Source of the DNA: Alloprevotella sp. oral taxon 473 str. F0040 | GTDB taxonomy: Bacteria; Bacteroidota; Bacteroidia; Bacteroidales; Bacteroidaceae | NCBI RefSeq assembly: GCF_000318095.2 | Contig: NZ_KB290710.1 | Coordinates: forward strand, 238,346-276,241 | DNA: 37,896 bases | Direction: 5' to 3' | In this document: positions 2,531 to 21,609 of the stretch, piece after piece | Layout: each line of letters begins with the position of its first letter | Position numbering within the stretch: position 1 is the first letter of the stretch | The notes under the pieces: model-generated | The model's input: the letters and a program-made list of their open reading frames with translations, nothing else | Database searches by the model: none | Told to the model about the DNA's origin: nothing | Translations under genes and position numbers: made by a program

Positions 2531-4078
2531 TTTTGGTCGCAGGGTCACGAGTGGCACCATCACCTCCTCCATAGACACACCGCCATGCTGGAAGGTGTCG
2601 CGATAGTACTGCACATAGTGGTTGTAATTGTTGGGATAGGCAAAGAAGCGCGTGCCCGTGGCAAAGATGTAAGCCGTAGAGAGATTGGGCGAAGGAAGTT
2701 TCAACGCGGCAGGATTGCGCACCTCAAACACCTCTTTCTTGGGATAATCGAGATTCTTCCCTAGTTTGTAGCGCAAGTTAGTATTGACATTGCGGTCACC
2801 AATCACCTTGCAGGGACGGTCTACGCGAATAGAACCGTGGTCGGTGGTGAGGATGACCTCAGCATCCCCTTCGGCAAGACGTCGGAAGAGCTCGCGGATG
2901 GCAGAATGACGGAACCACGAGAGGGTGATGGCGCGATAGGCTGCTTCATTGGCTGCTAATTCGCGTACCATTTTACTCTCCGTGCGCGCATGAGAGAGCA
3001 TGTCGATGAAGTTGATGACGATGACATTGAGCGGATGTTTCGACCATTCGGAATAACTAGACAACACTTGGTCTGCCGCTGAAGAGTCATTGAGTTTGTG
3101 GTAAGAGAAGGGCGTGAGCTGGCGCAAACGTTCTAGCTGCTTGCGAATGAGTTCCTCCTCATGCAGATTCTTACCTTCATCTTCCTCCTCATCCACCCAA
3201 AGATTGGGATATTGAGTCTTGATGTCAAGTGGCATGAGGCCAGAGAAGAGCGCGTTACGCGCATATTGCGTCACCGTGGGGAGGATGGAATAATAGAGAT
3301 TCTCCTCGATGTCGAAATCATTGGCGAGGGCTTTTGCCAGCGTGCGCCACTGATCGTAGCGGAAGTTGTCGAGCACCACCCACACCACTCGCTTTCCCTC
3401 CTTGAGTTTAGGGAGCACGGTCTGGCGCATCACCTGTGGCGAAAGCAAAGGAGTGTCTTCCGCATCGGGATGTTGCACCCACGATTCGTAATATTTGCGA
3501 ATGAACTTGGTGAACGCAGCGTTGGCTTCATCCTTCTGGGCGCGCAGGAGTTCGTTCATCGCAGAGTCGGGCGCTTCCTCGAGTTGCAATTCCCAGTGCA
3601 CGAGTTTTTTGTAGAGTTCCTTCCAAGCTTCTGCATCTTGGGCATCGTCCATGCTGAGCGCAATGCGAGAGAAATCTTGACGATAACCGATTTCGGTGTG
3701 CTCTTGTCGGATTTCCTGCGCGTGGATGTGCTTTTTGAGCGCGAGGAGAATCTGCATCGGATTCACAGGCTTCAAGAGATAGTCGGTGATTTGGGCACCG
3801 ATAGCTTGATCCATCAAGTCTTCCGCCTCGTTTTTTGTCACCATCACCACGGGTATCTCAGGGTGCAGAGCCTTGATGGCGGAGAGGGTTTCCAAGCCAG
3901 AGAGTCCAGGCATGTTCTCATCGAGAAGGACGAGGTCGAAAGCCTGTGCTTTGCACAACTCCACGGCATCCGCACCGTTGTTGGCGGTGGTGATATCGTA
4001 TCCTCGCTTCTCGAGGAAGATGCAGTGGGGACGGAGGAGATCGATTTCGTCGTCGATCCAAAGAAGGCGTGCGCTCAT
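2528..4078 (-). CDS. porX: PorX, response regulator with PglZ-type domain (type IX secretion control)
   Basis: 516 residues. Residues 1-120 are a CheY-like receiver: acidic pocket D9-D10, phosphoacceptor D53 in LLDENMPG, a Thr/Lys switch in VMVTKNEA and PVNPMQ. After a helical linker, residues about 215-516 are an alkaline-phosphatase-superfamily PglZ domain, with VVLDNFRYDQW holding a metal-site Asp and TTDHGSIRVDRP holding D-H. This architecture is that of PorX. In Porphyromonas gingivalis it works with the PorY kinase to control type IX secretion, and its PglZ domain cleaves oligonucleotides. No porY is adjacent here. A TAACTTTG -7 element lies upstream. A secreted alpha-galactosidase upstream has a C-terminal region resembling sorting domains, so the neighbourhood is compatible with type IX secretion. 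Confidence 0.93.
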   Translation of the reverse strand: MSARLLWIDDEIDLLRPHCIFLEKRGYDITTANNGADAVELCKAQAFDLVLLDENMPGLSGLETLSAIKALHPEIPVVMVTKNEAEDLMDQAIGAQITDYLLKPVNPMQILLALKKHIHAQEIRQEHTEIGYRQDFSRIALSMDDAQDAEAWKELYKKLVHWELQLEEAPDSAMNELLRAQKDEANAAFTKFIRKYYESWVQHPDAEDTPLLSPQVMRQTVLPKLKEGKRVVWVVLDNFRYDQWRTLAKALANDFDIEENLYYSILPTVTQYARNALFSGLMPLDIKTQYPNLWVDEEEDEGKNLHEEELIRKQLERLRQLTPFSYHKLNDSSAADQVLSSYSEWSKHPLNVIVINFIDMLSHARTESKMVRELAANEAAYRAITLSWFRHSAIRELFRRLAEGDAEVILTTDHGSIRVDRPCKVIGDRNVNTNLRYKLGKNLDYPKKEVFEVRNPAALKLPSPNLSTAYIFATGTRFFAYPNNYNHYVQYYRDTFQHGGVSMEEVMVPLVTLRPK

Positions 4079-10453: not shown

Positions 10454-10479
10454 CCTAAGCTTTCGGGCAAAAGCTTAGG
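10454..10479 (-). terminator. terminator of the ABC transporter operon
   Basis: CCTAAGCTTT (10454-10463) pairs with AAAGCTTAGG (10470-10479). On the minus strand the stem is followed by AGCTTTTATTT. The same stem sequence is used at 17852-17881 after the divergent operon. Confidence 0.75.
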
Positions 10480-10567
10480 TGGTTTGGAGAGTAAACTAAA
10501 GACTATTCGTTTGAACAAGAAAAAGCAGGCAGTAAGATTCTTCTTGCTGCCTGTTCTTGTTACGAGC

Positions 10568-12265
10568 TTACTGTATCGCCAGCAGCTTGCGGTATATTCC
10601 ATCTTTTGCTTTGAGTTCGGCATGCGTGCCTTTCTCCATAAGTTGTCCTTTCTCAATCACGATAATTTGGTGGGCATTGCGGATGGTCTGCAAATGATGG
10701 GCAATGACCAAGACCGTGCGATTTCGGATAAGGGCAGACATTGCCTGCTGTATCTTGTATTCATTGACAGGATCAACATTGCTCGTTATCTCGTCCAAAA
10801 GAATGATGGGAGCGTCTTTCAAGAAAGCACGGGCGATTGAAAGCCTTTGTTTCTGCCCTCCGGACAGTCCCAAACCGTTTTCTCCGATTTTTGTTTCATA
10901 ACCTTCTGGCAGACTGATGATAAAGTCGTGTATCATCGCCCGTCGTGCAGCTTCCTCGATCTCTTCCTGCGTAGCATTGCGGTTGCCCACTTTGATATTA
11001 TTGGCAATGGTGTCTGAAAAGAGAATAACATTCTGCATCACCACACTGATTTTACCAAGTAGATAATCATAGTCCATTTCTCGAATGTCTATACCACCGA
11101 TACGGATACTGCCGTTCTGCGGTTCCCAAAAACGAAGTAACAGGTTGGTAATGGTTGTTTTACCAGAACCTGACGAGCCAACAAGTGCCGTTACCGTCCG
11201 TTCGGGAACGTTGAACGTGAGATTTTTCATCTCAAAACTTTCTTTCTCATAATGGAACCCGACTCCCTCAAATGACAGGTCGAAGCGTTCCGCTGTTTTC
11301 GGCTGTGATGGATTGACGACAATGGGAGCGTCCAACAGGTGGGAAATGCGTCCGTAGCTGTCCTTTACCTTGATGTAGTTCAGCCAATGACTCTCCATAT
11401 TGACAAAAGGTTTGTAGAACTCTTTCGAGACAATAATGAACATGAGGTAGGCAAAAACGGAAAGTTCTCCGTGCCAAGTCCACCAAAGACCGATTGTAGC
11501 CATCAGAGCGAAAGCCAACTCTATAAGGAAAGTGTATCTGCCCACACTCACAGCTGCCAAACGTGAAGTCTTCTTACTGCTTTCTCCAAATTCACTGACA
11601 GAGTGGTCGAGTCTGTCACGGAACATTCCTTTTCCTCCAAACACTTTCAAAACTGGAATGCCTTTGACGTATTCCACAAATAGGCTGACCATATCCGCCA
11701 GATTGTCCTGTGATTCCTCCTGTGCTTTCATTCCCGAGCGAATGCCTCGATACAAAGAAAATAGGGCAATAGGAAGAATGGCTACCATTGTCAATCCCAT
11801 GAGCCAGTCCACACAGAAAAGTCCGATGCCAAGTATCAGAGCTACAATGAAGTCGGCGGACATCCGTGTCCATAGATGTCCCACAACCATTTCCATATTA
11901 TCCACGTCTTTGTGTATGACGGTGCTTATTTCGCCCAGTCGTTCATTGGTATAGAAACCGAGTGAGAACATTTTCAGTTTCAAGATGATTTTCTCACGGA
12001 TGCGTTCCACAAGGTCGAAGCCGGCAAAATGCTTGCTCATATCAGCAATGGCATTGGATATTGTTTTCAATACCAGCAGCCCGCCGAGTACCCATGCTGC
12101 CGAAATGAAAGAGATGCTTTCTCCCTGTATATGACGGTCGATAAGGAACAGGACGGTTAGCATGATTGCCGTGCCACAAAGAGCATAAACCACGAAAAAC
12201 AGTGCAGAGATTATCAGATGCCGCACTCCGCGGGCGGTTAATTCATTCAGTATATTGCGTACCAT
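10568..12265 (-). CDS. exporter-fold ABC half-transporter, second subunit (YbtQ/IrtB-like role proposed)
   Basis: 565 residues. I place the start at 12265 because GGAGGAATAAGA precedes this ATG, a rare clear Shine-Dalgarno, while an ATG at 12295 would overlap the upstream gene. Residues 1-300 hold the six-helix transmembrane domain and about 325-565 the nucleotide-binding domain: Walker A GSSGSGKT 363-370, Q-loop near Q411, signature LSGGQ 467-471, Walker B IILLDE 487-492, H-loop H523. All catalytic residues are present. The D-loop reads SNVD instead of the usual SALD. It starts 2 nt after the stop of the upstream subunit, so a heterodimer is likely. Exporter-fold pairs next to a TonB receptor and an AraC regulator import metal-siderophores in the Ybt and Irt systems. 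Export of a peptide or drug is the alternative. Confidence 0.9.
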   Translation of the reverse strand: MVRNILNELTARGVRHLIISALFFVVYALCGTAIMLTVLFLIDRHIQGESISFISAAWVLGGLLVLKTISNAIADMSKHFAGFDLVERIREKIILKLKMFSLGFYTNERLGEISTVIHKDVDNMEMVVGHLWTRMSADFIVALILGIGLFCVDWLMGLTMVAILPIALFSLYRGIRSGMKAQEESQDNLADMVSLFVEYVKGIPVLKVFGGKGMFRDRLDHSVSEFGESSKKTSRLAAVSVGRYTFLIELAFALMATIGLWWTWHGELSVFAYLMFIIVSKEFYKPFVNMESHWLNYIKVKDSYGRISHLLDAPIVVNPSQPKTAERFDLSFEGVGFHYEKESFEMKNLTFNVPERTVTALVGSSGSGKTTITNLLLRFWEPQNGSIRIGGIDIREMDYDYLLGKISVVMQNVILFSDTIANNIKVGNRNATQEEIEEAARRAMIHDFIISLPEGYETKIGENGLGLSGGQKQRLSIARAFLKDAPIILLDEITSNVDPVNEYKIQQAMSALIRNRTVLVIAHHLQTIRNAHQIIVIEKGQLMEKGTHAELKAKDGIYRKLLAIQ

Positions 12266-12267
12266 TC

Positions 12268-14013
12268 TTATTCCTCCTCTTCTTTTAATTGCCATTTACT
12301 TACTTGTTCCTGCGTCTCTGTCATATTGTGATACAGAGAGCAGTCTTTCATCAGTTCTTGGTGTGTTCCTTTTGAAACGACCTGCCCCTTGTACATCACG
12401 ACAATACGTTCCATCTCCTGAATGGTATTGAGACGGTGAGCAATGGTAATGACGGTCTTGTTGCGCTGCAATTCATCAAGAGCTTCTTGGATTAGTTTCT
12501 CATTCTCTCCGTCCAATGCGGCAGTGGCTTCATCGAGAATAACTATTGGAGAGTCTTTGAGCAACATTCGGGCGATGGAAATACGCTGTTTTTCTCCGCC
12601 AGAGAATTTTACGCCGGCTTCGCCCGCCAGCGTATCATAACCATTCGGCAATCCCATGATAAAATCATGAATACGGGCACGCTGTGCTGCCATTTCCACT
12701 TCTTTTTGTGTGGCGGTTGGTCTTCCTATACGGATATTATCCCGAATGGTTGTGTTAAATAGAAAAACCTCCTGCTGTACCATCGAAAAGTAATCAGCAA
12801 TGTTGCGTTCGGAAAGCTCCGCAATACTCTCTCCTCCCAGTCGGATGGTACCCGTTTGAGGTTGCCAGAACCCCATCATCAAACTTGCCAGCGTGGTTTT
12901 TCCCGACCCTGACTCGCCCACGATAGCTGTATGGCTTCCTCTCGGAAATTGAAGACATACATCTATCAACGCATTGTCTTCCTTGTTTGGATAGGAGAAT
13001 GTAACATGCTCGAAACAAATGTCTGTCTGTGTCGTATCCGTTTTCTTGTCCGCTGTATCCTTTGTCTGTACCTCTGTAATGGACTGTACCTTTGTCAGCG
13101 ACTGCCCATAGACGATTCGGAAATGTTGGAATGTAGCCAATTTAGCAAAGGAAGACGAGAACAGTCCGCCCAAAATCAGGGCAAGGATAAAACGTGCCAC
13201 AATCAGTTCGCCCGAACTCATCAGCCATAGACCGACAAGGGTCATTACCACGATACCGCCTTCCAAGAACATCGTTATCAATGTCATGGGAACGGTGACG
13301 CTGAACATGCTTCGCTTCACCCAACGAATATAATCGCGCATACCACCGAGTACCCGTTCCGTTCTGTTTTCCTCGTTACTGAAAGCCTTGATTACCGGTA
13401 TGGTAGCCACATATTCCAAAAGGTCTTCCGACATTTTTTGCGTACTCTCCATAAAGTGGAGAAAGCTCTTGCCCCAAAGCGTTTTGACAGCCATTTGCAG
13501 AAGAAATGCCATAGGCAAAAGAGAAACGAGCGACAATCCCAACCGCCAGTCCAACAACATGACAATCACCCAAATCAAGGCGGGGAAAAGCGTTGCCGAG
13601 AGGATTTCGGGTAATCCGTGTGCCAAATAAATCTCGATTTGCTCCACGTCATGGTTAATGATGTTCACCAAGTCGCCCACCTTACGCTCCTGAAAAAATC
13701 CGAGTGGCAAGCGTTGCAAATGACTTATGATACGCAACCTCAATCGTGTAAGGGCATTGTAAGCCGAGCGGTGCGCCTGCCAAATCGAAGTTCCGTAAAA
13801 CACGCTTCGAAGCAGTGCGAATAGTATCAATACTCCTCCAACTCCCCAAACTATTGTGGAAGAGAATGTGTCGTTCATCAACTTGTCCACCGCCCATACC
13901 ACGAGCAACAGGGGCAGTGTGCCGAAAACGAGTTGCAGCACAACCACTGCATTGGAGAGCAGGCTACGACTCTCCCGTTCCTCTTCAAGAGGCTTCATTT
14001 TCTCTTTATTCAT
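12268..14013 (-). CDS. exporter-fold ABC half-transporter, first subunit (YbtP/IrtA-like role proposed)
   Basis: 581 residues. A transmembrane domain of about six helices (residues 20-310) is followed by an ATPase domain with Walker A GESGSGKT 366-373, signature FSGGEKQR, Walker B IVILDEATAALD and H-loop IAHR. A low-complexity Thr/Lys/Asp linker (about 316-330) joins the two. Unlike mycobacterial IrtA it has no siderophore-interaction domain at the N-terminus. The gene is first in a two-gene minus-strand operon transcribed from the symmetric divergent promoter at 14043-14184, and is presumably coregulated with the TonB receptor on the other strand. Heterodimerisation with the downstream product is inferred from adjacency. 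The substrate is unknown. A ferric siderophore or other metallophore is my preferred reading. Confidence 0.9.
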   Translation of the reverse strand: MNKEKMKPLEEERESRSLLSNAVVVLQLVFGTLPLLLVVWAVDKLMNDTFSSTIVWGVGGVLILFALLRSVFYGTSIWQAHRSAYNALTRLRLRIISHLQRLPLGFFQERKVGDLVNIINHDVEQIEIYLAHGLPEILSATLFPALIWVIVMLLDWRLGLSLVSLLPMAFLLQMAVKTLWGKSFLHFMESTQKMSEDLLEYVATIPVIKAFSNEENRTERVLGGMRDYIRWVKRSMFSVTVPMTLITMFLEGGIVVMTLVGLWLMSSGELIVARFILALILGGLFSSSFAKLATFQHFRIVYGQSLTKVQSITEVQTKDTADKKTDTTQTDICFEHVTFSYPNKEDNALIDVCLQFPRGSHTAIVGESGSGKTTLASLMMGFWQPQTGTIRLGGESIAELSERNIADYFSMVQQEVFLFNTTIRDNIRIGRPTATQKEVEMAAQRARIHDFIMGLPNGYDTLAGEAGVKFSGGEKQRISIARMLLKDSPIVILDEATAALDGENEKLIQEALDELQRNKTVITIAHRLNTIQEMERIVVMYKGQVVSKGTHQELMKDCSLYHNMTETQEQVSKWQLKEEEE

Positions 14014-14042
14014 ATCGATTTCTGTTTGATTTTTCTAAGATG

Positions 14043-14184
14043 CAAAGGTACGGAGATGAGCACGGATAAAATACCCTGAATGAATAGAAGAATGCCCCGA
14101 AACAATGTATCATAGAAATGCTACAACAGGGGCATACGTATGGAGAATAGGGGTATTTTCTGCGGAATAACCATTTTAACTTTG
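14043..14184. promoter_or_regulatory. dyad-symmetric divergent promoter and operator region
   Basis: The minus-strand -7 element TACCTTTG is at 14043-14050 and the plus-strand -7 TAACTTTG at 14177-14184. Between them lie AAAATACCC (14068-14076), ATGCCCC (14092-14098), GGGGCAT (14129-14135) and GGGTATTTT (14151-14159). All six elements are symmetric about 14113.5. Within each half the two motifs are about 21 bp apart, two helical turns, as in AraC-family half-sites. The outer motif covers the -33 zone on each side, where no TTTG is present, which suits activator-dependent promoters. The AraC-type gene at 19626 is the obvious candidate binder. Confidence 0.75.
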
Positions 14185-14212
14185 CAAGAAATTTCAAAGA
14201 GGAATATACTGT

Positions 14213-16588
14213 ATGAAAGTTTCAAAATATGATTATACTTCAAAGTGTGTAAGTCTGTTGCTTCTTTCAATACTATTTCCGCTACACCTCTATGCGCAGA
14301 CAAATACAGTCGAATTAAAGGTTGTCGATGCAGATAATGGAAATGGAATAGAGGCAGCAACTGTTCAATGGAAACTAATAGGAGCTCCTTCTTTTAAGAA
14401 TGGTGCTTTAACCAATCGGCGTGGTATTGTACAAATACAAGCGAAAGGAGTCGATTCTTATGTTGTTTTAACCCGATATGTCGGTTATGAAACGGCTATA
14501 GATACGTTGAAATCGTCCATAGAAAAGCATACAATACGTCTTCGGGCAAATGCGCGAGAGTTGGATGGCGTTGTTGTTACAGGTAAATCCAAAGTTCAAT
14601 TTATGCGTGAGTCTCCTGAAGCAATTACTGTAATCAATGGTAAAGATTTACAAGGTCGCTCAGTTTCTTTGGAGACCATCTTAGATAAGACCATAGGATT
14701 GAAAGTCGGACAAACTGGTGGTTTGGGAAGCAGTTCAAGAATTATTGTTCATGGATTAGAAGGCAATCGCATCCAAATACTGTGGGATGGAATTCCTATG
14801 AGCACTTCGGACGGTACGTTTTCTCTTGATGAAATTCCTATAGATATTATCGAACGGATAGAAGTCTATAAGAGTATCATTCCTGCTCGTTTCGGTTGCG
14901 ACGGATTGGGGGGAGCGGTCAATATCGTTACGAAAGAATTCAGTACGGACTATTTAGATGCTTCGTATGAATTAGGTTCTTATCAAACACACAAAGGAAG
15001 CGTCTTCTCTCGCAAGAATTTCCCAAAGAGTGGTATTTTGCTCGGTGCAGGAGGGTATTATACTTCTGCAAAGAATGATTACTCCTTCAGAGTTCCCGAA
15101 AGAGAGAACCTATTGGTGAAGCGAGACCATGACCGTTTTCGTTCGTATATGCTGAAAGGGAAAGTCGCTTTTACGAAACTTTGGTTCGATGAGATTAGTA
15201 CAGAGTTCGGGTATTACAACCGTTTTAACGAGATACAAGGAGTCCTGAAGAATATCCAGCACGCTGAAAACAAATCCGGGATGTTTATGCTCGAAAACAA
15301 ACTGATAAAAAGCGGAATACTGAACAATCGACTTAACTTCGAGTCGCATTTCTCTCTCTCGCATACGACGAACAATTTTGTGGATACGGCACGAGTTAAT
15401 CACGATTTTGAGGGAAATATATATCCGAGCCCGAACGGACAGGGAGAAACGGGGGACGTTCCTCACAACTCAAACGACAAAGGTTTGGAAATCAACGAAC
15501 GTATCAACCTTGATTACAAATTGTCCACCAATCACAGTTTGAACCTGAACACGCTTATTAACTATGCCCAAAGACAACCGAATGATGACATTGCGAGTCA
15601 GCACGCAGGGTTTATTATCGGAGGATTTCCAAGCAAAAAGACCAGTATTGTCTCAGGATTGACTTGGGAAGCGAAACTCTTCGGTAGAAAACTGACGAAT
15701 ATGTTCTCAGCAAAGTATTTCCATCTCCATTCCGAGATAGAGGATTTGACTTCATACGAGATGATCGAGGCTCCGAAGAAAAAGAGCAATACGACATCGC
15801 AAATCGGCTGGATAGAGGCAATGAAGTACGAACCGTTCAGAGGTTTTCACTTGAAGGTATCTTACCAACGGGCGATACGACTCCCCAATTCGCAAGAGCT
15901 GTTCGGCGATGGTATCATTACCTTTCCTGCTGCCGGACTGAAACCGGAAAAAAGCCATAACTTCAATCTGGGTTTCTTGATAGATAAAAACGATGTACTC
16001 GGCCTGTCGCGATTGCAATTTGAAGTGAATGGCTTTTATATGCAGGTGAGCGATATGATAAAACTGATGAAACAACATATGGCAGCCGGATATGTGAATG
16101 CGGAAAAGGTACATATCAAAGGTATAGAGACCGAGTTGAAACTGGATATATCGCCGACGGTCTATGCTTACGGGAACCTGACTTATCAGGACGTCCGCGA
16201 TGTTTTGGACTATTTGCCGGGCACCCAAGCCCCTAATCCGACAAAAGGATTGCGACTGCCGAATATTCCCTACCTGTTTGCCAACTTCGGAGCGGAATAC
16301 CACAGCGACCGATTGTTCAAGAATTGGTATGTCAAGGCATTCTGGGACGGGAAGTTCACGGAAGAGTTCTTCTACTTTTGGGAACTTACTGAATTGCTGA
16401 AACGACGTATTCCTCGCAGTTTCGTCAATGATATTGGTCTGCTATTGACCTACAAGAACAAATATTCCATCGCTTTGGAATGCCACAACCTGATGAATAA
16501 AGAAGTGTGGGACCAGTTCCGCCAACCGTTGGCAGGACGGACATTCCACCTCAAATTCAGATATGTCTTCTCGAAAGGTATTTTATAA
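14213..16588 (+). CDS. TonB-dependent outer-membrane receptor
   Basis: 791 residues. A signal peptide ends at LYAQ (residue 29). A CarboxypepD-regulatory-like domain follows (about 32-115), then a plug (about 120-240) with VVVTGKSK, ESPEAITVINGKDL, RIIVHGLEGNRIQILWDGIP and GLGGAVNIVTK, then a 22-strand-type barrel to the C-terminus (FHLKFRYVFSKGIL). It is a stand-alone receptor without a SusD partner, so a siderophore, haem or metal chelate is likelier than a glycan. It is first in an operon with the lipoprotein 18 nt downstream and is divergent from the ABC operon. FyuA of the yersiniabactin system is the functional parallel. Sequence alone does not give the ligand. Confidence 0.92.
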   Translation: MKVSKYDYTSKCVSLLLLSILFPLHLYAQTNTVELKVVDADNGNGIEAATVQWKLIGAPSFKNGALTNRRGIVQIQAKGVDSYVVLTRYVGYETAIDTLKSSIEKHTIRLRANARELDGVVVTGKSKVQFMRESPEAITVINGKDLQGRSVSLETILDKTIGLKVGQTGGLGSSSRIIVHGLEGNRIQILWDGIPMSTSDGTFSLDEIPIDIIERIEVYKSIIPARFGCDGLGGAVNIVTKEFSTDYLDASYELGSYQTHKGSVFSRKNFPKSGILLGAGGYYTSAKNDYSFRVPERENLLVKRDHDRFRSYMLKGKVAFTKLWFDEISTEFGYYNRFNEIQGVLKNIQHAENKSGMFMLENKLIKSGILNNRLNFESHFSLSHTTNNFVDTARVNHDFEGNIYPSPNGQGETGDVPHNSNDKGLEINERINLDYKLSTNHSLNLNTLINYAQRQPNDDIASQHAGFIIGGFPSKKTSIVSGLTWEAKLFGRKLTNMFSAKYFHLHSEIEDLTSYEMIEAPKKKSNTTSQIGWIEAMKYEPFRGFHLKVSYQRAIRLPNSQELFGDGIITFPAAGLKPEKSHNFNLGFLIDKNDVLGLSRLQFEVNGFYMQVSDMIKLMKQHMAAGYVNAEKVHIKGIETELKLDISPTVYAYGNLTYQDVRDVLDYLPGTQAPNPTKGLRLPNIPYLFANFGAEYHSDRLFKNWYVKAFWDGKFTEEFFYFWELTELLKRRIPRSFVNDIGLLLTYKNKYSIALECHNLMNKEVWDQFRQPLAGRTFHLKFRYVFSKGIL

Positions 16589-16606
16589 TTCTAAACATAA
16601 ATAAAA

Positions 16607-17785
16607 ATGAGAACAACATTGAAGAACATAGCCCTTTCTGCTATGCTGGTCGGCTCCATAGGGCTGACGTCCTGCGACAAGAACGATGACCCGAAACCAA
16701 CGCCCAATGAGGTGCAACAGCATTTTGCCTTTGTGCATTATGTGGACAAAAGTGCTTACGTCGGCACGTTCGGTGATTTGACACCTCAAGCCACCAACAA
16801 CAAGAAAGCATTCGAATTTGGCTTTGGGTGTTATCTCTTCGCAAAAGGAAACACGGTACTTGTGCCCGAAGGGAAATTCGGAGATAAGGTACACAAGTTT
16901 ACAAGAGGGGCGCACGGCGAACTGCTAAAAGTAGGTACGATGACCTTTGAACAGATGGCGCAACCCGGAGAAATCAATTTCATCGACGAGCAGCGGGCAT
17001 ACGTCGCTTTGCACGGAAGGGGAAAGATTGCTCTAATCAATACCGCTACGTTGCAAAAAGAGGATGAAATTGACCTCTCGTCTTATGCTGTTCAGGACAA
17101 TAATCCCGACCCCGGTTGCAACGTCATTCGAGACGGAAAGATGTATGTAGCCCTCAACCAGCTTAATTCGCCCCACACCTCCGTACCGGGGACGGGTGCA
17201 GAGGTGGCTGTTATTGACCTTAAAACGAAAAAGACCGAAGTCATTAAGGACAGTCGCACAAGTGTTGTCGGATTGTTCCGTCACTCCGATGCCTTTATGG
17301 ACGAGCGGGGCGACATCTACTTTTACAGTGCGGGCAACAACTTCAACGTTGCCAATAAGGAAGGTTTCCTGCGTATCCGCAAAGGAAGCGACCAATGGGA
17401 CGCCGACTACCTGTTCAACCTGTCGAAGACAACCATAAAAGGGATTGGCAAAACGGGGCAGTATATGATTAAGTCTTACTATGCGGGTAATGGCATTGTA
17501 TATAGTTGCTTGAAAGTAACGGATACGGAATTCGGAATACTCAAGAAAGACTTCCAACCCGTGAAAATCGACATTTGGAACAAAACCATCGAAAAACTCG
17601 ATTTGCCAATGACCGACAGCAATGGCTCTTTTGCCATAACCCGCTACAAAGATTTCATCGTCTTTGGTATGACGTGCAATAATGGAACGGGCTACTATAC
17701 CTACAATACCAAGACGGGTGAATGCTCGCAAACTCCCGTCGTTACTGCCGTGGGAATACCTTCAAGTTTAGTCGCGTTTGAGTAA
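16607..17785 (+). CDS. lipoprotein with beta-propeller-like repeats, receptor partner
   Basis: 392 residues. A lipoprotein signal ends in the lipobox LTSC (Cys at residue 23) followed by DKNDDPKP, a linker typical of surface lipoproteins of this phylum. The rest lacks membrane segments and shows recurrent blocks of the type 'GKIALINTATLQKEDEIDL' and 'GAEVAVIDLKTKKTEVIKD', the look of a seven-bladed propeller. I think it falls in or near the DUF4374 group, which is often found beside TonB receptors, but cannot confirm. It begins 18 nt after the receptor stop, so they are cotranscribed, and a strong terminator follows. A role as ligand-capturing lid is inferred. XusB of Bacteroides thetaiotaomicron, a siderophore-binding lipoprotein, is a precedent. 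Confidence 0.85.
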   Translation: MRTTLKNIALSAMLVGSIGLTSCDKNDDPKPTPNEVQQHFAFVHYVDKSAYVGTFGDLTPQATNNKKAFEFGFGCYLFAKGNTVLVPEGKFGDKVHKFTRGAHGELLKVGTMTFEQMAQPGEINFIDEQRAYVALHGRGKIALINTATLQKEDEIDLSSYAVQDNNPDPGCNVIRDGKMYVALNQLNSPHTSVPGTGAEVAVIDLKTKKTEVIKDSRTSVVGLFRHSDAFMDERGDIYFYSAGNNFNVANKEGFLRIRKGSDQWDADYLFNLSKTTIKGIGKTGQYMIKSYYAGNGIVYSCLKVTDTEFGILKKDFQPVKIDIWNKTIEKLDLPMTDSNGSFAITRYKDFIVFGMTCNNGTGYYTYNTKTGECSQTPVVTAVGIPSSLVAFE

Positions 17786-17851
17786 CCAAATACGATATAC
17801 GGAAGAACTCATAAGAAACCCATCAAAAGCACCTAAGCTTTCTGCCGATTA

Positions 17852-17881
17852 CACCTAAGCTTTTGAGCAAAAGCTTAGGTG
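17852..17881 (+). terminator. terminator of the receptor-lipoprotein operon
   Basis: A 13-bp perfect stem (CACCTAAGCTTTT / AAAAGCTTAGGTG) with loop GAGC is followed by CTTTTTG. A second copy of the left arm (GCACCTAAGCTT, 17829-17840) could compete for pairing. The stem sequence matches that of the ABC operon terminator at 10454-10479. Confidence 0.88.
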
Positions 17882-17900
17882 CTTTTTGCAATAAATCAAG

Positions 17901-17908
17901 TACATTTG
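17901..17908 (+). promoter_or_regulatory. -7 element for the HU-like gene
   Basis: TACATTTG matches TAnnTTTG about 85 nt upstream of the ATG at 17992. A GGAGG lies at 17972-17976, about 15 nt before the start, which is further than usual. Confidence 0.45.
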
Positions 17909-17991
17909 CGTTATCGAACAGAAAGCCTTTGCCGAAAGCCAATACCTCCGACTTCGGCAGGGGAAGTAAAAGGAGGAAAAACTATTGATTT

Positions 17992-18441
17992 ATGGCTAAC
18001 AAACCATTACAGTTCGTTCTTGTAGAACGCAAATTGAACGTCGGTGCAAATGCCGGTAAAGTCGTGCAAATAGCCCAGCCAACGGGTAGACATCGAGTGC
18101 GTTTCCGCAATTTCTGTGAGCGTGTGGCGAAATCGACTACATTCAACCGTCAGGAAGTGGAAGCCGTATTGAACTACGCCACCGAGATTGCCAGAGATAT
18201 CGTGGTAAATGGCGACATCGTAGAATTTGGTGATTTAGGTACGCTCAAACCTTCATTCAAGAGTAAATCCGTCCCTAAAGGCGAGGTTTTTAATGTGCAG
18301 AAGCATATCGAGAAACCGGTTGTACGTCTCAGCCCATCGAAGAAATACTTTACACTTACCGATGTGAGCTACGAGCAAACGACGGCCAAACCCAAGAAAG
18401 GTGAGAAGCCGAACGACAGTGGTAATGAGGAATATCCGTAA
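17992..18441 (+). CDS. HU-like DNA-binding protein
   Basis: 149 residues. Residues about 10-105 carry an HU/IHF-type fold with a longer N-terminus: RVRFRNFCERVAKSTTFNRQEVEAVLNYATEIARDIVVNGDIVEFGDLGTLKPSFKSKSV, the helix-helix-strand order of HU, including the GDLGT turn. This is the variant HU family of Bacteroidota that ends in a lysine-rich tail (here KPKKGEKPNDSGNE) and is common on mobile elements. It should bind DNA with little sequence preference. Its 3' end overlaps a small ORF that starts at 18425, which in turn overlaps the nuclease-like gene, so the three are one transcription and translation unit. Confidence 0.88.
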   Translation: MANKPLQFVLVERKLNVGANAGKVVQIAQPTGRHRVRFRNFCERVAKSTTFNRQEVEAVLNYATEIARDIVVNGDIVEFGDLGTLKPSFKSKSVPKGEVFNVQKHIEKPVVRLSPSKKYFTLTDVSYEQTTAKPKKGEKPNDSGNEEYP

Positions 18442-18520
18442 TTTCATTAAAGTGGCGGAGCGACTGGCGGCAAAGGCAGTTGCTTCACTTATATCAATAA
18501 TTAATATAAAAACGCAATGA
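18425..18520 (+). CDS. 31-residue small protein overlapping both neighbours
   Basis: The ATG lies 17 nt inside the HU-like gene in another frame, and the stop TGA overlaps the ATG of the next gene as ATGA. The peptide has a basic N-terminus (MRNIRNFIK) and a continuous hydrophobic or amphipathic helix (VAERLAAKAVASLISII), so a membrane-associated peptide is possible. Bacteroidota often encode very short peptides next to variant HU genes (the 'smalltalk' proteins), but this sequence does not share the residues I remember for that family. It may instead be a translational coupler. Translation is unproven. Confidence 0.5.
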   Translation: MRNIRNFIKVAERLAAKAVASLISIINIKTQ

Positions 18521-19455
18521 GAATAGAAGTTGAATACAAAAATCACACTGGGGAACTAACCCCTAAGACATTCCCAATGACACGACTTGCTTTTGCTAAA
18601 CATTTAGCGATTGCCGGACAAGCTTATGCTCCTTGTCTACAGAAATTTATTCGATCCGTTGGTATGTATTGGAGTTATAGCTATTATATACAAAAAAGGG
18701 CTTTTAATGAAGATCGTTTTTCAGAGCCACCAATTCAACTCTCGGATCCTACAGAAAAAAGTCATTTTTCTAATCTTGCAGGGAAAGCCATTGCAGATTT
18801 TCTTTCAAAACGAATAGATCAGAGTATTTTCACCGTGAATTATGAAGCTGCAATGAGGTTAAGGAATATACCTATTAAGGGTTGTCGACCGGATTTACTT
18901 GCTTATAAATCCAATGAGAATATATTCGCTATTGAGGCTAAAGGCTATTCGGGCGGATGCAGAAATATGCAAAAACATAAGGATCAATCCCAACAAGGTG
19001 AAATCCCTGTTAATTTTTCGGTTGCATGTGTCTCATATGATCTTTACAAAAAGGTTAAGTGCAACTATTATGATCCGTTCAATGACAACATTCCATTTGA
19101 TGAAGAGCTATTTAGAGAGCTAACGAAAAATTATTACAGAGGGCTTTCGGAGTTCTTGATCTTTCCCCATAGAGAGCACCAGATTCAAGACGAATCTTTT
19201 TATGAAGTAGAATTGTTTCCTCATTTTTTTGAAGAAATTCTATCAGACAATATGCATTTTCGTTATTACAGAGACTTTTGTCGAGATGTTTATTATCGTT
19301 GCCCAAGATTAATATTGCCTGGTAGAATCAGAGAATATGCAGAAGCTGGTTTGCCAAGAGAAACAAGACCTTTTTCATTTGAGGGAGGAGAACGAGACCA
19401 CGATTTATACATAGATAATGACAGAGTTGGACTAATAATAAATAGCACAACCTAA
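18517..19455 (+). CDS. PD-(D/E)XK nuclease-like protein of unknown role
   Basis: 312 residues, no signal peptide. CRPDLLAY (D126) followed by NIFAIEAKGYSGG (E140-A-K142) fits the PD-(D/E)XK active-site pattern D-(13)-E-x-K, with a basic and aromatic region after it. The C-terminal half (FLIFPHREHQ, ELFPHFFEEILSDN) is unrecognised. It is clearly more AT-rich, with more AGA and ATA codons, than the neighbouring HU, ABC and AraC genes, which suggests a separate origin. There is no methylase or specificity subunit beside it, so it is not a standard restriction system. Its start overlaps the stop of the small ORF. A defence or DNA-processing role is plausible but is inference from the motif and the setting. 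Confidence 0.65.
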   Translation: MRIEVEYKNHTGELTPKTFPMTRLAFAKHLAIAGQAYAPCLQKFIRSVGMYWSYSYYIQKRAFNEDRFSEPPIQLSDPTEKSHFSNLAGKAIADFLSKRIDQSIFTVNYEAAMRLRNIPIKGCRPDLLAYKSNENIFAIEAKGYSGGCRNMQKHKDQSQQGEIPVNFSVACVSYDLYKKVKCNYYDPFNDNIPFDEELFRELTKNYYRGLSEFLIFPHREHQIQDESFYEVELFPHFFEEILSDNMHFRYYRDFCRDVYYRCPRLILPGRIREYAEAGLPRETRPFSFEGGERDHDLYIDNDRVGLIINSTT

Positions 19456-19500
19456 TAATGGTAAGTAAGTGTTCAAAATTAAACTGCAATGTGTCTTGAC

Positions 19501-19562
19501 TTCGGGACTGCGAGACAGACAGCCCTCGCAGTCCCGAAATCTCGTAGTCTCGTAGTCTCGTG
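19501..19562 (+). terminator. long hairpin and CTCGTAGT repeats after the nuclease-like gene
   Basis: A perfect 14-bp stem (TTCGGGACTGCGAG 19501-19514, CTCGCAGTCCCGAA 19525-19538) with a 10-nt loop is followed by tandem TCTCGTAG units (19540-19562). There is only a weak T-run (CTTTTATAT) further on, so it may be a terminator or a REP-like intergenic repeat. Confidence 0.5.
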
Positions 19563-19625
19563 TCTTTTATATAAACTAAATTTGCTCATCTACTTATACA
19601 AAAAAAATGCATTAATAGAACGCAT

Positions 19626-20606
19626 ATGACCATAGAATTTTGTGCAATCAATAAGCCTGAAGATTGGATGGAGATGGTAGCCGAGCAATTCGGCACATCG
19701 GTAACGAACGATGGTTTTACCGTTCCGCCCTCAGTGGGTAGCGGCTTTTTCAAGCAATACTACCCGTTGTCATGGCTCACATTGACCTACATCAGTTTCG
19801 TATCGTACGAACCGATGACAATGGTGCGTCGCTCGGTGGAAAACTCGAAATGGATTCCCGTGATGTTCTATATCAACGAGCATAAGCATGAGCAGATTAT
19901 CGGCGCAAGCACGAAAACGGTCGGGGTGGACACGCTCGACGGTATCTTTATGCCCTCAAGCAATATCCCTACGGAGTGGACTTTCGCTCCCAAACGGCAG
20001 TATGAAAACATCACATTGACCTTCAACAAGGATTGGATAGAGCAAATGGATACGGCTCACGAAACCTACATCGGTCGGCTGCTCCGGTCGGACAAGTCTT
20101 TTTATCTGTTCGAGACCATCACACCTGCGATGCAACAAGTATTGGATGGCATTAAGGCCACAGCCCAAAGCGATGTGCTTTTCTATCCCCTCCATTTGCA
20201 TGGAAAGGCAATAGAACTGCTGACGATATTTCTTGAAAAACTCGAAAAACGTTCGGAGGTAAAATCTCTTTCCAACTTGAATTTGAACGATGTGGAGGCT
20301 GTCTTCCGTGTCCGTCGTCAGATTTTACAAAGTTTGAACAACGTACCGAGCATTCCCGAACTGGCACGTGAAGTAGCAATGAGCAACTCCAAACTACAAA
20401 AGTGTTTCAAACAGGTTATTGGAAAAGCCATCGCCGAGTATGCCCTATCCGAAAAGATGGAATGGGCAAAACGTTTGCTTTCCACTCGTCTTTACTCTGT
20501 ATCCGAAGTAGGCTATAAAATTGGATATGCCAATCTCAGCCACTTCACAGAGGCTTTCCGAAAATATCACAGAATAAAACCCAAGCAATATCTCGATTCC
20601 CTGTGA
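19626..20606 (+). CDS. AraC-family transcriptional regulator of the uptake operons (proposed)
   Basis: 326 residues. An N-terminal ligand-sensing region (1-220) is followed by a C-terminal double helix-turn-helix: SIPELAREVAMSNSKLQKCFKQVIGKAIAEYALSEKMEWAKRLL, then YSVSEVGYKIGYANLSHFTEAFRKYHRIKPKQYL, the classic AraC/XylS signature. It resembles the group containing PchR and YbtA, which sense ferric siderophores from inside the cell and activate their receptor and transporter genes. The symmetric motif set at 14068-14159 is a fitting target. The gene sits after the nuclease-like gene in the same direction with its own TAAATTTG-like -7 element (about 19579-19586). I see no copy of the operator motif in front of it, so autoregulation is not evident. 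Confidence 0.92.
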   Translation: MTIEFCAINKPEDWMEMVAEQFGTSVTNDGFTVPPSVGSGFFKQYYPLSWLTLTYISFVSYEPMTMVRRSVENSKWIPVMFYINEHKHEQIIGASTKTVGVDTLDGIFMPSSNIPTEWTFAPKRQYENITLTFNKDWIEQMDTAHETYIGRLLRSDKSFYLFETITPAMQQVLDGIKATAQSDVLFYPLHLHGKAIELLTIFLEKLEKRSEVKSLSNLNLNDVEAVFRVRRQILQSLNNVPSIPELAREVAMSNSKLQKCFKQVIGKAIAEYALSEKMEWAKRLLSTRLYSVSEVGYKIGYANLSHFTEAFRKYHRIKPKQYLDSL

Positions 20607-20695
20607 GTTTAATGTAATAGGGATATAGTTTGCCATTTAAGGATCATTTTACCCTAAGCAGTCTTCCGAACTTTGCCTGCAAAATATCAGGCAAT

Positions 20696-20929
20696 ATGAA
20701 AAGACTTATCAAAAAAGAATCCTTTGAGATGCTTTCCTCCAATCAAAGCACGGAAGCAACCGACGACCTTATCGGAGAAATCATAAAGTTGGGGGATAGT
20801 GAAGAAAATCTTGTTTCGTTATTTCGCACATTAAACTTTACCCGATTCCAATTGCGGATGATAGTAGAAAGCTCAGACATAACCTCCGAAGTGGGGAAAA
20901 AATGTGTCAGAGTTGCTCTTTGTCATTGA
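20696..20929 (+). CDS. small hypothetical protein
   Basis: 77 residues, basic N-terminus (MKRLIKKESFEML) followed by acidic and helical text (DLIGEIIKLGDSEENLVSLFRTLNFTRFQLRMIVESSDI). No signal peptide or membrane segment. A short inverted repeat (TTGCCTG/CAGGCAA, 20673-20694) lies just before the start. I do not recognise it. It could be a truncated end of a longer mobile-element gene. Confidence 0.4.
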   Translation: MKRLIKKESFEMLSSNQSTEATDDLIGEIIKLGDSEENLVSLFRTLNFTRFQLRMIVESSDITSEVGKKCVRVALCH

Positions 20930-21609
20930 CACAGAGTTGAAATTGCTAAAGATGCGGATGCAAGGAGTGTTGCCCGCGTCACAAAGCAAACCTGCCAAGA
21001 AGTTCTGTTAGACAGGAAAGATCGTGGACTTGGTGGAGTTACCTCTGAAAAATAAACGGACGGCTTCGTAAAAGTCATTTGAGGAAAATTCTTTTTCTCC
21101 TGATATGCTATCATCGTTGTAGCCAACAAAGTAGTCCCCAACAACAAGCTTTAGACAAAGGGGGTATGATATTATCGCTTGTATGTCTGGAACTTGCAAT
21201 GTTTTGGGGAAGAGATTCCGTTGTAACTGAGAGATTAAGAAGATAAAACTACATATCATGCTATCATCGGAATAAAATTATAAGTAATAAAGAGTGATCT
21301 CGATATAAGAATATCGTGGCAAACTTAGAGTCGGATACAAATAGACAGGTCAACACAAAATTTTCTTCATAAGTCAGACTACCGTCACTATGCGAAAAAG
21401 AAAGGGAGAACTCCAAATGAGTTGTTTTCTGAAAATAAAAACGGAGAATAATTGCTCTTTCCCGTGAATCCTATTACCTTTGCACATAGATAAGAATATC
21501 ACCCACAAAAAAGAAGCAAAGCATTGCAGAAAATCGGTGGAGCAATAGCGGGAGATTAGGTATTTTGCAGAATATAAACTCAAAGAAATACAGCCACTTA
21601 TCAATTTTA
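20930..21609. other. right end of the island, decayed or non-coding
   Basis: No intact gene. A plus-strand frame just after 20940 (about 38 codons, containing ARVTKQTCQEVLLDRKDRGL) reads like protein but is cut by stops, suggesting a remnant. Near the end lie GGTGGAGCAA (21536-21545) and GCAGAATAT (21567-21575), both of which also occur near the left end. This is where an integrase would be expected. None is visible on either strand. Confidence 0.45.

Follow-up and report, generated by a model that had tools for sequence, protein, structure and literature searches.

AraC of Escherichia coli, at araI1-I2 of the araBAD promoter, binds two direct half-sites 21 bp apart, of which the promoter-near one overlaps the hexamer contacted by sigma. 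Among the one-component regulators of Bacteroidota, we know of few whose operator has been worked out. The 142-bp region described here (14043-14184 of the window, by which we mean the whole 37,896-nt stretch of Alloprevotella sp. oral taxon 473 str. F0040 DNA that was analysed) resembles araI1-I2 in its direct half-sites 21 bp apart, with the near one over the sigma-contact zone, and in the AraC subfamily encoded nearby, the HTH part of which matches the AraC DNA-binding structure 2k9s (3.4e-13 for the subfamily profile). At the same time, the half-site sequence is another one, the promoters are of the Bacteroidota -33/-7 type, and the putative operator stands at a divergent promoter as two mirror-image copies, with a third copy elsewhere in the island; a distant looping half-site is not in evidence.

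In gene content the locus can be compared with the yersiniabactin island of Yersinia, which, in the excerpts of the papers drawn on here, encodes the AraC-type regulator YbtA together with a TonB receptor and the YbtPQ ABC pair, and carries repeats in several promoters that are proposed YbtA sites, with feed-forward by the metal-loaded compound (PMC8725597, PMC11225919). Our island likewise appears to join an AraC gene, a TonB receptor, an ABC pair and repeated operators at several promoters, but its half-site differs and a siderophore synthesis gene is absent among the island genes scanned. With XusABC, a xenosiderophore system of Bacteroides thetaiotaomicron (PMC13142918, PMC10434189, both as excerpted), it has in common a TonB receptor adjoining a lipoprotein, here XusB-related, whereas the island adds the ABC pair and the AraC gene, and a PepSY (XusC-like) gene is absent among the island genes scanned; the text of PMC13142918 contains no word beginning 'AraC'. 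Since only the receptor and the lipoprotein are in common, we would not class the island as a Xus member. Finally, sets of an ABC pair, MMPL and lipoprotein-sorting genes with TetR regulators are induced by iron starvation in Porphyromonas gingivalis and Prevotella intermedia, according to the parts of PMC10434189 used here; compared by description, the kinds of transporter gene are alike, but the regulator is AraC-type here and TetR-type there. Our literature searches returned no title or abstract opening on this operator or island, and we claim absence from print no further than that.

The island and its spread

DNA common to other copies of the island spans about 10469-21037 of the window, in which the genes are as follows.

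10568..12295, minus strand: abcB, partner ABC transporter, 575 aa
12268..14013, minus strand: abcA, ABC transporter with fused membrane and ATPase domains, 581 aa; first gene behind the left arm
14213..16588, plus strand: TonB-dependent receptor, 791 aa, behind the right arm; best NCBIfam model is the siderophore receptor MxcH, below cut-off
16607..17785, plus strand: lipoprotein-like protein, 392 aa, XusB-related (PDB 9hqe, E 4.9e-9, residues 210-368, 159 residues)
17992-18441: HU-like gene, between the lipoprotein gene and araC (17786-19625)
18517-19455: 312-aa gene of no assigned family, between the lipoprotein gene and araC
19626..20606, plus strand: araC, proposed regulator, 326 aa, with C-terminal HTH_18

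The abcA product matched YbtQ at 2.1e-80 and YbtP at 1.2e-76; P-glycoprotein-type chains matched better (over two stretches each), and SAV1866 (2.7e-79) and MsbA (1.7e-73) similarly. The window carries an insertion between the receptor genes and araC, with HU-like matches also present in L032, L046, L056, L057 and L058, and with no DNA match for 18489-19610 among the compared island loci.

Scanning genome contigs for the receptor gave 30 loci, 28 of which are copies of the island (L032-L059), in Porphyromonas, Prevotella, Hoylesella, Segatella, Bacteroides, Tannerella, Alloprevotella and other genera. The order abcB-abcA, receptor, lipoprotein, araC holds in every sufficiently long locus except L057, where the lipoprotein gene is absent and the receptor shortened, and araC is missing from no island locus that reaches far enough. 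Receptors are 79-98% identical across genera, so the spread of the island would seem to be recent or frequent. The island probably travels on Bacteroidales conjugative elements, since single loci have genes of such elements downstream (RteC fragments in L032 and L046, MobA in L034, MobB and MobC in L040); frames resembling conjugative-element genes were recognised by eye in other loci. Among 72,556 plasmid records there was no match for the abcB DNA (near) or for the mirror-symmetric region, hereafter the dyad (distant). The nearest relative of the window's copy shifts along the island, from L037/L038 (90%) over the ABC genes through the dyad, to L032-L034 (about 94%) from about 14600 and L055 (96%) at araC, which we take as a sign of recombination between island copies.

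Nine loci with paralogous receptors at 33-36% identity (of matches at 29-36%) were compared. A relative of the lipoprotein accompanies all nine, the ABC pair none, and an AraC gene stands beside the receptor only in L075; these loci were rejected as uninformative about the operator. In L080 (G059:C1, 4793-15186), a 2056-aa frame precedes a paralogous TonB receptor and a XusB-like gene; by eye only, the start of this frame resembles an adenylating synthetase, and it is possibly a siderophore synthesis gene.

Geometry and conservation of the divergent promoter

The sequence-only reading had proposed an AraC-type operator in which two -7 elements and four GC-rich motifs are symmetric about 14113.5, with half-sites two turns apart and the outer one over the -33 zone. 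The features of this region are the following.

14043..14050, minus strand: -7 element of the ABC operon promoter; plus-strand CAAAGGTA, minus-strand TACCTTTG; CAAAnnTA in 27/27 aligned rows
14068..14076, minus strand: left arm, outer half-site; AAAATACCC, minus-strand reading GGGTATTTT; 17 bp off the -7 element
14092..14098, minus strand: left arm, inner half-site; ATGCCCC, minus-strand GGGGCAT; 21 bp off the outer half-site
14099..14128, no strand: centre between the arms, 30 bp; sequence poorly conserved across island copies
14129..14135, plus strand: right arm, inner half-site; GGGGCAT
14150..14159, plus strand: right arm, outer half-site; GGGGTATTTT, with GGGTATTTT at 14151-14159; covers the -33 zone
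14177..14184, plus strand: -7 element of the receptor promoter; TAACTTTG; TAnnTTTG in 27/27 aligned rows

All three pairs of elements are centred exactly on 14113.5, and the spacing was confirmed at 17 bp from outer motif to -7 element on both sides, 21 bp from motif to motif in each half, and 30 bp for the centre. Over a 71-bp half, 37 of the 71 positions are mirror-complementary (window mean 17.9, sd 3.8, over 75,506 centres), a tie for the highest mirror score that is reached by 4 of the 75,506 centres. The composite half AAATANCC-N16-TRCCC, a pattern derived from the window's own two sites, has exactly two matches in the 2.55-Mb genome, one per half, and the reversed control pattern has none there. 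Read towards its gene, each arm consists of GGGnTAT, 21 bp further on GGGnTATTT, and finally TAnnTTTG, the last G of this -7 box lying 35 nt from the outer GGG.

Alignment of the intergenic region with orthologous islands, a check that the sequence-only reading had named, comprised 26 island loci and the window (27 rows, 24 distinct haplotypes, several Bacteroidales genera), rows being loci and not genomes (L034, L057 and L059, for example, are from one Bacteroides pyogenes strain). Left out were L058 and L059, where the upstream region is absent, and L060 and L061, which are unrelated. The motifs and their within-arm spacing proved to be conserved: none of the four distances (-7 to outer and outer to inner on the left, inner to outer and outer to -7 on the right) varies among the 27 rows, and the composite pattern matches exactly in both arms in 26 of the 27, the remaining row, L033, having one matching arm and being one base off in the left inner motif. 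Within the elements 37 of 48 columns are invariant, compared with 44 of 139 elsewhere (Mann-Whitney p 6.6e-7 over the 24 haplotypes, columns being treated as independent). Some changes in the outer motif are matched on both arms (C:G in L048 and in the window type, A:T in most) and others, those of the L039 and L046 types, are unmatched, so that co-variation of the outer motifs is partial.

Of five sets, four (right arms, third arms and both distant sets) have their maximum of self-similarity within the arm at 21 bp; the left arms reach 0.60 at 20 bp and 0.55 at 21 bp. The position of the outer half-site over the -35/-33 zone is fixed, at 35 nt and without gaps in the island arms and in the distant sites, which were scanned ungapped. 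A search of 399 genomes of the family with the full-dyad pattern found 12 dyads in 11 genomes, a count that speaks for specificity and not for independent recurrence, as the pattern was built from sequences that it finds; the 11 dyads that were fetched lie between abcA and receptor homologues, and the 12th adjoins a receptor match.

With receptors as alike across genera as they are (79-98%), this conservation could reflect mere recent spread of the island, with arms that have no function. However, the centre and the flanks have diverged, with indels, while the arms have not, and the arm is kept in distant loci with AraC proteins of 21-41% identity, so that we find an explanation by spread hardly credible. 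Nor does the mirror symmetry appear to serve a hairpin or cruciform in the nucleic acid instead of protein binding. The strand does fold better than its shuffles (z -3.83; none of 200 equals it), as is expected of an inverted repeat, but the third and the distant arms are single, yet keep sequence and spacing; the region lies upstream of both proposed starts; and the inner mirror is perfect (ATGCCCC twice) in only three of the 27 rows, those of the window and its near relatives L037 and L038, the left inner motif of the other 24 being ACTRCCC or similar. On this evidence a folding role is exceedingly improbable. Since the repeat within each half is direct and gives the half a direction, and since single halves recur elsewhere, the symmetry is, as judged from the sequence, that of two operators placed back to back, one per promoter, and not that of a single palindromic site.

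We consider it very likely that the 142-bp region holds two copies of a directional class II activator operator for the island's own AraC, one for each divergent promoter. In each copy, an AraC dimer would occupy the two direct half-sites, which are spaced 21 bp apart with the outer one lying over the -33 zone; it would contact the sigma factor and activate the -33/-7 promoter, as AraC does at araI1-I2. The right copy would serve the TonB receptor and lipoprotein genes and the left copy the ABC pair. We infer activation from the invariant distance to the -7 box, and the mirrored layout would result from one operator being placed at each of two divergent promoters. A protein bound over the -33 zone could also block polymerase, and AraC might instead bind the arms mainly as a repressor, both operons being released from repression by a small molecule. 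Shifts in position should matter little to a repressor, though, whereas the distance to the -7 element is the same in 27/27 rows and in the distant arms, as sigma contact requires; moreover, by inspection of the window, TTTG, the usual -33 consensus, is absent from its usual place on either side, which fits dependence on an activator. We thus regard repression as unlikely.

The core of the sequence-only reading, an AraC-type operator with half-sites two turns apart, the outer one over -33, and with both operons under one regulator, is supported by the spacing in 27/27 rows, by the third arm and by the arms beside distant AraC homologues. Its further suggestion was that the centre may either loop or bind two dimers. 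Two separately bound units fit better than a fixed DNA loop, given a poorly conserved centre of 30 or 33 bp and single arms elsewhere. A loop is disfavoured because copies do not agree in the length of the centre: it measures 30 bp in 3/27 rows (those of the window, L037 and L038) but 33 bp in the remaining 24/27, a difference of 3 bp or about a third of a turn, and the fixed, phased distance between distant half-sites that marks araO2-like looping is not found among them.

As araC lies 3' of the receptor genes and is perhaps co-transcribed with them in some copies, activation through the right arm could amount to positive feedback. Our guess is that the ligand probably enters through the receptor and is a small molecule, siderophore-like or otherwise; it is the receptor and the XusB-like protein that suggest a siderophore-like cargo.

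A third arm behind araC

One more arm, absent from the sequence-only reading, first became apparent as an additional match to the composite pattern just after araC in five loci. In the window it is placed as follows.

20615..20678, plus strand: third arm; inner GGGATAT at 20620-20626; outer GGATCATTT at 20641-20649, decayed; -7 element GAACTTTG at 20668-20675; 21/35 geometry as in the other arms

Left, right and third arms can be aligned without gaps over 64 nt, and the third arm of the window scores 12.9 bits compared with a maximum of 6.5 in 50 simulated 16-kb sequences. The stretch 3' of araC is alignable in 23 of 25 loci, the window counted (it is missing in L057 and L058). Under a matrix made from left and right arms only, the third arm exceeds the simulated maximum (6.5 bits) in 18 of the 25 loci, among which it ranks third in 17 and first in L059, a locus without the dyad. 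The third arm of L034 scores 0.8 bits, below the simulated maximum, and the inner half-site is partly lost in L040, L041, L042 and L045. The same matrix found no arm above the simulated maximum 5' of araC itself in the island loci; a weak match (4.6 bits, 10616) lies just 5' of araC in L048.

In 7 of the 25 copies (L033, L037, L038, L052, L054, L055 and L059) the genes that the third arm faces encode a 431-aa exported protein and a 761-aa transporter, the latter shortened in L055; in L037, the single locus tested, these proteins are DUF1302-like and MMPL/HAE3. A third copy of the operator would thus face an exported protein and an MMPL/RND transporter in these seven, while in the window it has decayed and the operon is absent: no relative of the MMPL protein was found in this genome at E 1e-20, and a short RteC-like remnant lies behind the window's third arm. 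Other loci have RteC-like fragments or broken genes in this place.

RteC-type fragments follow the third arm at 13468-13794 of L032 and at 13154-13477 of L046 (both Pfam RteC), and the short, broken remnant of the window lies at about 20693-21037. In some copies, then, the third arm would drive an RteC-like frame and not the MMPL operon, which could tie the regulator to transfer of the element.

Arms beside distant AraC relatives

The window's AraC protein has a long N-terminal region and a C-terminal AraC-type double HTH (HTH_18 E 1.9e-17, HTH_AraC 1.5e-8), and the second HTH is among the best conserved parts. A predicted structure of the protein (mean pLDDT 42.6, from an 11-row alignment) was unreliable in the N-terminal region and was discarded.

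AraC proteins of 40-41% identity were found in L090 and L091, which belong to other families of the order. In both, araC is directly upstream of an operon like that of the third arm (a protein of about 430 aa, MMPL, LolA-like), and an arm with the same 21 and 35 nt lies between araC and the operon; L090 has an additional GGGGTAT 42 bp upstream, in step. Phylum-wide (392 genomes) and order-wide (393 genomes) searches yielded a further 12 distant relatives. The best site was near araC, and was kept, in 10 of the 12, and in the first pass 6 of these 10 scored above all 20 of their own simulated sequences; site and araC are separated by a small open frame in L102. L104 (best site elsewhere) and L106 (beside araC, -2.5 bits) were not used for training. 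Identity to the window's AraC in this first distant set is 23-41%. As a separate observation, L091 carries a second strong arm (3110-3173, 37.1 bits) before a 480-aa membrane-like protein.

A test matrix was then fixed beforehand from the island arms and 12 distant sites (L090, L091 and the 10 kept), and was applied to loci from a search of 323 genomes, which gave 26; dropping L107, L108 and L111 as repeats of training loci left 23. The top site lay beside araC in all 23, at 26.7-43.2 bits, compared with a maximum of 12.8 bits in 25 other AraC loci, in 10 of which the (low-scoring) top site fell in the araC flank. These controls were the 30 best-scoring AraC-domain loci of five genomes, some with hybrid or long proteins, less L137, L140, L153, L158 and L160, which are subfamily members. 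Masking the -7 part left 16.9-35.8 bits in the test loci and 2.0-11.4 in the controls, with the same site recovered in 23/23. Test-set AraC proteins are 21-28% identical to the window's and form 9 clusters at 60% identity, and the 23 loci are not all independent events: they come from two families, the arms of L116 and L130 are identical, and 18 of the 35 neighbours belong to one protein cluster.

Behind the arm, and reading away from araC, a frame starts at 17-82 nt in the 35 loci (210 nt in L093). The genes so placed fall into 14 clusters, the largest of which has 18 of the 35 (L098, L099, L112-L118 and L123-L131); its only tested member, L098, is an FAD-binding oxidoreductase. Pfam assignments, made in single loci, include FAD-binding oxidoreductase, zinc-type alcohol dehydrogenase and MFS, with others recognised by eye, and these neighbours suggest that the molecules concerned are small and often foreign.

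The sites might also be owned by another regulator, for example a Fur-kind iron regulator or one of TetR type, with araC as a passenger; comparable ABC/MMPL sets in Bacteroidales, likened to the island by gene kinds, do have TetR-type regulators and iron-starvation induction in the excerpted text of PMC10434189. Against this, an arm of the same sequence and geometry adjoins AraC relatives that are 21-41% identical, with neighbours in 14 clusters, the 25 control AraC loci are without an arm at that score, and the composite motif occurs nowhere else in the genome, all of which makes ownership by another regulator very unlikely.

We find it rather likely that an AraC subfamily across the phylum Bacteroidota uses one rigid operator code, and that one of its regulators was acquired by a mobile element in which the operator then rose to three copies, a mirrored pair among them. 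The code would consist of a pair of TAT-cored half-sites with 21-bp spacing, placed exactly 35 nt from where the -7 box ends and adjoining the regulator gene, and its targets, oxidoreductase, efflux or uptake genes, would be readable straight from sequence; tripling of the operator would let a single switch govern operons for uptake and transport. If regulator, site, target gene and transcription direction can all be predicted in this way, the code would assign targets to many 'AraC family, unknown' genes of the phylum, and it suggests that a mobile island could wire new operons to its regulator by copying sites and not by changing the protein. Once the ligand is found, the arms could possibly provide an inducible promoter for gut and oral Bacteroidales.

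The best control site, at 904-967 of L159 (12.8 bits), is arm-like, adjoins an AraC gene 18% identical to the window's and may be real, in which case the operator code may reach beyond the AraC subfamily.
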